DNA from: Agromyces allii
GTDB taxonomy: Bacteria > Actinomycetota > Actinomycetes > Actinomycetales > Microbacteriaceae
Length of the DNA: 64,000 nucleotides
Direction of reading: 5' to 3'
Assembly (NCBI RefSeq): GCF_009749385.1
Contig: NZ_WBIN01000008.1
Location: forward strand, 186,001 to 250,000
Part shown: positions 49,828 through 54,120 of the stretch, piece by piece
Layout of the letters: every line of letters begins with the position of its first letter
Numbering within the stretch: the first letter of the stretch is position 1
The notes under the pieces: model-generated
What the model was told of the DNA's origin: nothing
The model's input: only the letters and a program-made list of their open reading frames with translations
Databases searched by the model: none
Program-made: the position numbers and the translations under genes

Positions 49828-50029
49828 GCTCCGACGCTAGGGCGGCGAGACCCCGCGTGTCACCCCCCTTGCGCCGGGTCGCGCCCGGCCACGTCGGGCC
49901 GTCGTCGCCGCGTCCGCCGCTCGTCATCGCGTCGCCCGCGTCGTCGCGGACTCGGTGCCCGGGTTACGCTGGCGGAGCCGCGCACGTCGCTGCCGCGGCA
50001 TCCCACCCCTGCGCTTTCCGGAGGCCACC

Positions 50030-51115
50030 GTGCACGATTCGACGACCGCGACGCCCGCGCTGCACCCCGAGACGCGGCTCATCATCGCCGGGCGTCCGCC
50101 GCACGTGCCCGACCAGCCGATGAACGTGCCCGTGCACCTCACGTCGACCTACGTCGCGGGCGGCGACCTCGAGTACGCGCGCTACGCGAACCCGTCGTGG
50201 ACGGCGTTCGAGGAGGCGCTCGGTGGCCTCGAGGGCGGCCGCGCGGTCGCCTTCGCATCGGGCATGGCTGCGATCACCGCGGTGCTCGACCTGGTGCCCG
50301 AGGGCGGCACGGTCGTGGCGCCCCGCCACTCGTACACGGGCACGGTGGCGCAGCTCGACCAGCTCGCCGTGAAGGGCCGGCTCTCGGTCGTCTACGTCGA
50401 CATCAGCGACACCGCGGCCGTCGCCTCCTCGATGGAGGGCGCGGCGCTCGTGTGGATCGAGTCGCCCACCAACCCGGCGCTCGAGCTCGCCGAGATCCCG
50501 GCGCTCGTCGCCGCGGCGCACGCGCACGGCGCGCTCGTGGCCGTCGACAACACCTTCGCGACGCCGCTGCTGCAGCGTCCGCTCGAGTCGGGCGCCGACC
50601 TCGTCGTGCACTCGGCCACCAAGTACATCTCGGGTCACAGCGACGTGCTCATGGGCGCCGTGGTCGCGGCATCCGACGAGCTCGTGGAGAAGATCACCGC
50701 GTACCGCTCGCTGTTCGGCGCGATCCCCGGCCCGTTCGAGACCTACCTCGCACTGCGCGGGCTGCGCACGCTGCCCGTCCGCCTCGAGCGCGCGCAGGCC
50801 ACGGCCGCCGAGCTCGCCGCGCGCCTGCACGACCACCCTGCACTCGACGAGGTGCGCTACCCCGGCTTCGGCGCGATCATCTCCATCGTCGTGCGCGGCG
50901 GCAAGGAGCCCGCCGACCGGCTCGTGCAGGGCACGGCGCTGTGGGTGCACGCGACGAGCCTCGGCGGCGTCGAATCGACCTTCGAGCGCCGCCGCCGCTG
51001 GCAGCTCGAGCAGCCGACGATCCCCGACGGCCTCGTGCGCCTCTCGGTCGGCCTCGAGCACGTCGACGACCTGCACCGCGACCTCGTGCAGGCGCTCGAC
51101 GCGCTCGACGCGTAG
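50030..51115 (+). CDS. Cys/Met-metabolism PLP-dependent enzyme (cystathionine gamma-synthase/lyase-like)
   Basis: A 361-residue fold-type-I PLP enzyme. The PLP lysine is in [21 protein letters not shown] holds the phosphate-binding segment; SYTGT stacks on the cofactor; DNTFATPL contains the pyridine-nitrogen Asp. It catalyses gamma- or beta-elimination or replacement on cystathionine, homocysteine or methionine; synthase and lyase activities cannot be told apart here. It is slightly shorter than typical MetB (about 380). GTG 50030 has GGAGG 5 nt upstream; the frame continues further but lacks a ribosome site. Confidence 0.87.
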
Positions 51116-52470: not shown

Positions 52471-53328
52471 TCAGCGCGCGAGCAGCCAGTCGAGCGCATC
52501 GGGCACGACGTCGAGCACCGAGACGTGCCCGTCGTCGAGGCGCATCCACAGGGTCGCGTCGGGCAGGTGCGCGAGCATCCACGACGCGTGGGTCCGCGGC
52601 ACCACGCGGTCGCCCTCGCCCTGCACGACGAGCACGGGCACGCGCACGTCGGCGAGCTCGAATCCCCATGGCCTCGCGAAGGCGACGTCGTCGTCGATGA
52701 GGCCGTCGTCGCCCCACTCGGCGGCGCGCGCGACATCCGCCCCGAGATCCGACCACGCGCCGTCGAGCGCCGCGAAGTCGACGGGCAGGAACTGCTCGGG
52801 GTCGAACTCGTCGGTCTGCGCGAAGCGCTCCCGTGCGGCGCGGCCCTCGCGTGCGGCGTGCAGCGCTCCGGGCGCGCGCATGCCCGCGAACCAGTCGAAG
52901 CGGTCGGTGAACGGCGCGATGCCGGCGAGGGTCGCGACGCCGAGCACGCGATCCGGATGCCGCGCCGCGCCCGCGAGCGCATGGGGCCCGCCGCCCGACG
53001 CGCCCATCGCGTGGAACGTGTCGACGCCGAACGCGTCGGCCACCGCCACGGCATCGTCGGCCGCCGAGACGACGTCGCGGCCGGGCCGCGGCGACGAGCC
53101 TCCGTACGAGGGTCGGGCGTACGAGATCACGCGGATGCCGCGCGCGGCCGCCGCGGCGACCACGGGCGCGAGCGGGGCCCCGGTCTGCGGCGAGCCGTGG
53201 TGCCACATGAGCACCGGGCCGCCCGCGGCATCCGCTCGCCCGTCGGAACCGCCGGGCGCGACCCCGCCCGTGTCGTGGGCGCGCAGCACGCGGCCGTCGG
53301 GCAGGTTCACGTCGATCGAGGTCGGCAC
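52471..53328 (-). CDS. Alpha/beta hydrolase
   Basis: A 285-residue cytoplasmic hydrolase. The oxyanion-hole HG is in MWHHGSPQTG; the nucleophile Ser is in AMGASGGGPHAL; the acid Asp is in GEGDRVVP; the base His is in DDGHVSV. The substrate class is unknown. GTG 53328 is 6 nt after TATGCT (53335-53340), so it is probably leaderless; the long upstream frame is antisense to the neighbour. It starts only 24 bp from the divergent EI24 gene and shares overlapping promoter DNA with it. Confidence 0.85.
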   Translation of the reverse strand: MPTSIDVNLPDGRVLRAHDTGGVAPGGSDGRADAAGGPVLMWHHGSPQTGAPLAPVVAAAAARGIRVISYARPSYGGSSPRPGRDVVSAADDAVAVADAFGVDTFHAMGASGGGPHALAGAARHPDRVLGVATLAGIAPFTDRFDWFAGMRAPGALHAAREGRAARERFAQTDEFDPEQFLPVDFAALDGAWSDLGADVARAAEWGDDGLIDDDVAFARPWGFELADVRVPVLVVQGEGDRVVPRTHASWMLAHLPDATLWMRLDDGHVSVLDVVPDALDWLLAR

Positions 53329-53334
53329 CGGGCC

Positions 53335-53344
53335 AGCATAGGCT
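53335..53344. promoter_or_regulatory. Back-to-back overlapping -10 elements of two divergent leaderless genes
   Basis: AGCATAGGCT contains TAGGCT (53339-53344, plus) and, on the minus strand, TATGCT (53335-53340). They share two base pairs and drive genes whose start codons are 24 bp apart. Each -35 region must lie inside the other gene. Confidence 0.65.
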
Positions 53345-53352
53345 GATCGACG

Positions 53353-54120
53353 ATGATCGAACGGTTCCTGCTCGGGGTGCGCACGCTGCTGCGCGGCTTC
53401 GGATTCTGGCGCCGGCAGCCCGGTGCGATGCTGCTCGGGCTCGTGCCCGCCGCGATCGTCTGGGTCGTCGTGCTCATCGGGCTCGTGGCGCTCGGCGTGA
53501 GCCTGCCGAGCATCACCGTGTGGGCGACGCCGTTCGCCGCCGGATGGGTCGAGCCGTGGGCCTCGCTCACGCGCACGGCCATCGGCGCCCTGCTGCTCGG
53601 CGGCGCGATCGTGCTCGCCGCCGTGACCTTCACGGGGCTCACCCTGCTCGTCGGCGACCCGTTCTACGAGCGCATCTGGTTGGCCGTCGAGCAGGACCTG
53701 GGCGGCGAACCCACGGGCCGCGGCATCGGGTTCTGGCGTTCGGCCGGCGATGCGGTCGCGTTCATCGCGCTCGGCGTGCTCGTGTCGATCGGGGTGGGCC
53801 TCAGCGGCTTCATCCCCGTCATCGGCGGCGTGCTCGCGCCCGTGCTCGGCGTGGTGCTCTCGGGGCGTCTGCTCGCTTGGGAGCTCACCGGCCGCGCGTT
53901 CGAGTCGCGCGGCATCCCCGCCGACGAGCGCCGGGCGCTGCTGCGCTCGCACCGCGCGCGCCTGCTCGGTTTCGGCGTGGCCACCCAGCTCTGCTTCATG
54001 GTGCCGCTCGGCGCGGTCTTCACGATGCCCGCGGCCGTCGCCGGAGCCACGATGCTCGCACGCGGCGTGCTCGACGACGCGGCGGCGACGGCCGCGGCTG
54101 CGCATCCGCCGGTCGAGTAG
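53353..54120 (+). CDS. EI24 domain (CysZ-like) membrane protein
   Basis: A 255-residue membrane protein with four main hydrophobic helices and the EI24/CysZ pattern: N-terminal LLRGFGFWRRQP, LLVGDPFYERIWLAVEQDLGG between helices, and a long C-terminal hydrophobic pair with AWELTGRAFESRG. CysZ supports sulfate uptake in proteobacteria; actinobacterial members are unassigned. ATG 53353 lies 8 nt after TAGGCT. The final codons Pro-Val-Glu-stop are formed by a repeat arm shared with the convergent methyltransferase gene. Confidence 0.83.
   Translation: MIERFLLGVRTLLRGFGFWRRQPGAMLLGLVPAAIVWVVVLIGLVALGVSLPSITVWATPFAAGWVEPWASLTRTAIGALLLGGAIVLAAVTFTGLTLLVGDPFYERIWLAVEQDLGGEPTGRGIGFWRSAGDAVAFIALGVLVSIGVGLSGFIPVIGGVLAPVLGVVLSGRLLAWELTGRAFESRGIPADERRALLRSHRARLLGFGVATQLCFMVPLGAVFTMPAAVAGATMLARGVLDDAAATAAAAHPPVE

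Follow-up and report, generated by a model that had tools for sequence, protein, structure and literature searches.

A conserved core of overlapping -10 hexamers, probably a bidirectional promoter, between divergent EI24 and alpha/beta hydrolase genes in Agromyces allii

In Agromyces allii an EI24/CysZ-family membrane protein gene and an alpha/beta hydrolase gene diverge from a 10-bp core in which each strand carries one -10 hexamer, TAGGCT towards EI24 and TATGCT towards the hydrolase, the two overlapping in a common TA (Table 1). Judging from the sequence comparisons described below, we consider it quite probable that this core is a conserved bidirectional promoter serving both genes, and that the hydrolase has lost its leader in this species. 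The pair was found in the window, that is, the whole stretch of 64,000 nucleotides analysed here, which belongs to contig C20 of the 4.36-Mb genome designated G000. The presence of one -10 hexamer per strand within a 10-bp core and the 24-bp distance between the start codons had both been claimed in an earlier note on this DNA, and both were confirmed by direct reading.

Table 1. Features of the divergent EI24–hydrolase region in window coordinates
Feature	Positions	Strand	Remarks
Shared core AGCATAGGCT	53335..53344	.	two opposite-strand -10 hexamers, common TA 53339-53340
-10 element TAGGCT for EI24	53339..53344	+	8 nt, then ATG 53353
-10 element TATGCT for hydrolase	53335..53340	-	6 nt, then GTG 53328
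24-bp inter-start-codon region	53329..53352	.	read from sequence; separates GTG and ATG
Alpha/beta hydrolase gene	52471..53328	-	start GTG 53328-53326, stop included; PF00561
EI24/CysZ-family membrane protein gene	53353..54120	+	start ATG 53353-53355, stop included; PF07264

Under the proposed mechanism, the two opposite-strand TANNNT hexamers share their TA, and a polymerase carrying the presumed sigma factor would melt the same short run of base pairs whichever way it faces, the core being used in one orientation at a time. One orientation would produce an EI24 mRNA that is leaderless or nearly so, and the other would produce the hydrolase mRNA, with a leader bearing a Shine–Dalgarno (SD) sequence in the relatives. 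In A. allii a deletion would have removed this leader together with its SD, so that the GTG lands at the reverse +1 and the hydrolase is probably leaderless. The predicted distance between the two transcription start sites is 22–25 bp.

The family assignments have E values of 1.9e-35 for EI24 and 5.6e-20 for the hydrolase. The best named matches of the EI24 protein are from Agromyces species, and a match was found in 35 of the 60 relatives searched (the L112 row was excluded from the EI24 identities, the comparison being ungapped). The hydrolase is under purifying selection, with dN/dS of 0.21–0.28 against four relatives and 0.21–0.29 among the relatives themselves. Its reading frame stays open for 544 codons across EI24 (window 52471–54105), and automatic annotation could therefore set the start far too early. 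For this reason our start call rests on homology: the GTG at 53328 lines up with the hydrolase starts of most relatives.

The strongest evidence for a shared promoter comes from the conservation of the core. The hydrolase search gave 39 matches, spread over 38 of 60 genus genomes; 30 of the loci were fetched, and 16 of these (the window included) are adjacent divergent pairs with a gap of less than 150 bp. TANNNT hexamers on both strands with a common TA are present in all 16 of them; the reverse arm reads AGC in 15, and the core mostly takes the form of a perfect 10-bp palindrome, AGCCTAGGCT, with the information content falling just outside positions -6 to +6. Conservation in relatives had been named beforehand as a check in the earlier note, and the overlapping hexamers came through it in every adjacent pair. 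For comparison, there are 81 EI24 loci without an adjacent hydrolase, of which 58 have TANNNT 5–9 nt before a start (the other 23 were excluded, and some of the 58 are near-duplicates). Here the reverse A is kept in only 7 of 58 and the reverse AGC in 1 of 58. The difference gives a Fisher p of 3.6e-11, a value uncorrected for the relatedness of the 16 pairs. Several EI24 loci with a different divergent ORF have no reverse arm, and therefore the shared core goes with the EI24–hydrolase pair and not with divergence as such.

Individual loci illustrate what happens to the second arm. At L013/L125 (L125, with a gap of 565 bp, is outside the 16 adjacent pairs) an extra ORF, which we take to be lipoprotein-like from its lipobox-like start, sits between EI24 and the hydrolase, and the reverse hexamer is TAGGCG. 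L012 keeps the reverse TANNNT without a hydrolase; the sequence beside its EI24 resembles, by eye, the strand opposite the window ORF 49955–51115, which suggests a recent deletion. The sole AGC case among the 58 is L051, from a Microbacterium MAG, where another divergent ORF, presumably related to DUF3817, lies behind GAGGAG; with its AGCCTAGGCT palindrome, this locus may have come to the same design independently. TATGCTGGCCCG followed by RTG also precedes EI24 in L025, L056, L060, L095 and L101. Taken together, the loci suggest that the second arm persists as long as there is a gene for it to serve, and that in other cases it is usually lost.

The reading of the hexamers as -10 elements is supported by their spacing from start codons across the genome. 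TAGGCT precedes RTG at a gap of 6–8 nt in 119 places and at a gap of 14–16 nt in 18, TATGCT at the gap of 6 is found nine times against nine over three control gaps (only about threefold over background), and in a 450-kb sample of G000 a start codon follows TANNNT at gap 6 in 49 and at gap 7 in 37 of 392 cases, compared with about ten at most other gaps. In the same sample TANNNT is rare, the 392 occurrences on both strands comparing with 1552 of ATNNNA, and nearly one quarter of them sit 6–7 nt before ATG or GTG. The genome thus characteristically places -10 elements at the spacing of leaderless genes, in agreement with published work on other Actinobacteria (PMC3898074, PMC3160421). The comparison relied on is that between gaps, because the control built into the genome search is the pattern read backwards, which has another base order. 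This reversed pattern gave 138 places at gaps 6–8 (real 119) and 145 at gaps 14–16 (real 18) for TAGGCT, and was thus unchanged by the gap, unlike the real counts; it gave 39 against 11 for TAGGCT at gap 8, 11 and 20 against 9 and 9 for the TATGCT patterns, and 103 against 5 for AGCNTANGCT. TAGGCT itself shows no enrichment in the window (3 occurrences, 3.9 expected).

The bare arrangement of two overlapping hexamers is, by comparison, weak evidence, and it is the conservation that decides the case. AGCNTANGCT occurs once in the window, with 0.14 expected, and in five places genome-wide. The looser ANNNTANNNT cores number 3 in the window, fewer than the 8.8 expected under a first-order Markov model, and a general excess of symmetric -10 cores in the genome was rejected on this count. 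In the 450-kb sample, start codons at gaps of 5–9 nt on both sides accompany 2 of 20 ANNNTANNNT cores, barely more than the 2, 0, 0 and 0 found in four control gap ranges. It is for these two reasons that little weight is placed on the arrangement. A second double-start candidate, a divergent pair on overlapping TANNNT hexamers, was seen in G000 on contig C12 near 121480 (L159, around 1480). Both its ORFs are open, one of 305 codons (gap 6), presumably LysR-like, and one of 338 codons (gap 8), whose start call is doubtful because an in-frame ATG lies 19 codons further on. L141, with start codons at gaps 5 and 6, was discarded as a double-start pair, its ORFs having only 33 and 2 codons.

It could be argued that EI24 alone has a genuine promoter here, that the reverse hexamer is a by-product and that the hydrolase is served by an undetected promoter elsewhere, for example inside EI24. 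TAGGCT alone does precede EI24 in many loci that lack the hydrolase, and some other palindromes in the genus serve a single evident gene. The contrast between 16 of 16 adjacent pairs and 7 of 58 other loci in keeping the reverse hexamer, together with its broken form where an ORF separates the genes (L125), nevertheless makes this explanation unlikely. Still less credit, and the least of any alternative considered here, is given to the idea that a dimeric regulator binds the palindrome and in this way controls both genes. The perfect 10-bp symmetry in most pairs would suit such a site, but each half of the palindrome is the -10 motif itself. Moreover, AGCCTAGGCT is rare: 56 sites were found, in 39 of 60 genus genomes, with 0–3 per genome and none in G000. 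In 26 of the 30 sites fetched and inspected, an ATG or GTG with an ORF of at least 100 codons lies at a gap of 6–8 nt, while gaps of 14–16 nt gave 2 of 30. The EI24 locus accounts for six of the 30, and elsewhere 20 of 24 have the start codon at gap 6–8. An operator of a regulon is accordingly not favoured, given the rarity of the palindrome and its usual position at -10 spacing from start codons. The bidirectional promoter design may also occur elsewhere in the genus: the palindromes of L167, L184, L189 and L194, all away from EI24, combine a leaderless-type start with an SD-like start on the opposite side (mechanical matches), and can be regarded as candidate bidirectional promoters.

A further proposal, made in the earlier note, concerns expression: the overlap would by itself make the cell express either EI24 or the hydrolase, with no regulator needed. 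The elements do share two base pairs, such promoters do not admit two opposing polymerases simultaneously, and in E. coli bidirectional promoters one side is repressed once the other is substantially activated (PMC12825309). A block on simultaneous binding is, however, not the same as alternation. Warman et al. (2026) tested five bidirectional promoters of E. coli and describe little competition at basal activity in any of them, all five being too weak at that level for it to be substantial (PMC12825309). In M. tuberculosis, where closely juxtaposed divergent promoters are called common, starvation is reported to raise the expression of both members of the divergent prpD/Rv1129c pair, each of them leaderless (PMC3898074). 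The sigma-70 consensus pair of TTGACA and TATAAT is not present in 53200–53500 (the scan covers the pair and not a -35 alone), so that nothing points to unusual promoter strength. Strict mutual exclusion is therefore very unlikely and this part of the earlier note is not upheld. Given the E. coli basal tests and the M. tuberculosis pair, independent low-level expression of both genes would be expected, with competition only if one side is strongly active.

The suggestion that both genes are leaderless holds in part. An SD site is absent before both window genes, and both -10 hexamers lie at or near leaderless distance. For the hydrolase the signs are those of a leaderless gene, namely TATGCT, a gap of 6 and a GTG with no SD-like stretch in the preceding 22 nt. 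For EI24 the gap of 8 is barely above background in the genome (11 sites against about 6 per gap, i.e. 18 over three gaps), and its mRNA may for this reason begin 1–3 nt before the ATG. Such a short leader would matter: for leaderless initiation in mycobacteria, a start codon (ATG or GTG) placed exactly at the 5' end is reported to be both necessary and sufficient (PMC4633059). What does not extend to the relatives is the leaderless hydrolase: in the other 15 adjacent pairs the distance between EI24 and its aligned start is 38–98 bp, and in all 15 this start has 4–7 SD-like bases ahead of it (two have only 4). Double leaderlessness, as far as it can be predicted, is thus confined among the 16 adjacent pairs to A. 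allii.

These comparisons indicate that A. allii has probably lost the hydrolase leader, which placed the GTG at the reverse +1. That the gene passed from SD-led to leaderless initiation in one deletion step, its coding start being fused to a pre-existing bidirectional promoter, is a proposal for which we find the case evenly balanced. A possible route can be drawn from G075 (L113/L192). There GCCCGGTG lies next to the core, with GCCCAGTG 57 bp (19 codons) away at the coding start, and deleting one repeat copy with the interval reproduces the window arrangement. This exact route is a conjecture, and it is weakened by the fact that G026, which is closer to the window by hydrolase dS (0.297, against 0.344 for G075), was read by eye as having no GCCCRGTG repeat. 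Two in-frame starts are possible for the G075 hydrolase: a GTG of leaderless type at gap 6 and, 15 codons downstream, an SD-led ATG. It is this ATG that the SD-like stretch precedes, and the aligned GTG follows four codons after it. If the one-step passage is true, symmetric promoters could let neighbouring genes switch their mode of initiation without losing transcription.

The locus offers a minimal conserved bidirectional promoter in a very GC-rich genus, together with natural variants that can be compared, namely loci with the pair intact, with an ORF inserted, without the hydrolase and without the leader, and it may be a useful case in which to study how the initiation of a gene changes from leadered to leaderless. 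By its sequence, the core appears to add a new case to a class of promoter that was described only recently. Our literature search for a bidirectional promoter with leaderless genes in Actinobacteria listed a single review, on synthetic biology; this is not meant as a claim of absence from print. Bidirectional promoters with shared -10 elements have been described in E. coli and are said to occur in all prokaryotes (PMC12825309, PMC10268837); they are defined by divergent transcription start sites 7–25 bp apart (PMC10268837), with 23 bp as a common class (PMC12825309). The core studied here resembles this Warman/Grainger class, as the cited passages present it, in having overlapping -10 elements on opposite strands between divergent genes, and its start-site distance, here a prediction only, falls within the 7–25 bp range and near the 23-bp class. 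It differs in that it belongs to a GC-rich actinobacterium, has TAGGCT-type hexamers and places one or both genes at leaderless distance. In Actinobacteria, in turn, leaderless genes are described whose start codon follows TANNNT at a distance of about 7 nt (PMC3898074, PMC3160421, PMC4633059), and the present genes are like them in carrying TANNNT some 6–8 nt before ATG or GTG with SD absent. Compared with those genes as characterised in the cited passages, the EI24–hydrolase pair is distinguished by -10 elements that share bases and by a hydrolase that is SD-led in the other 15 pairs.
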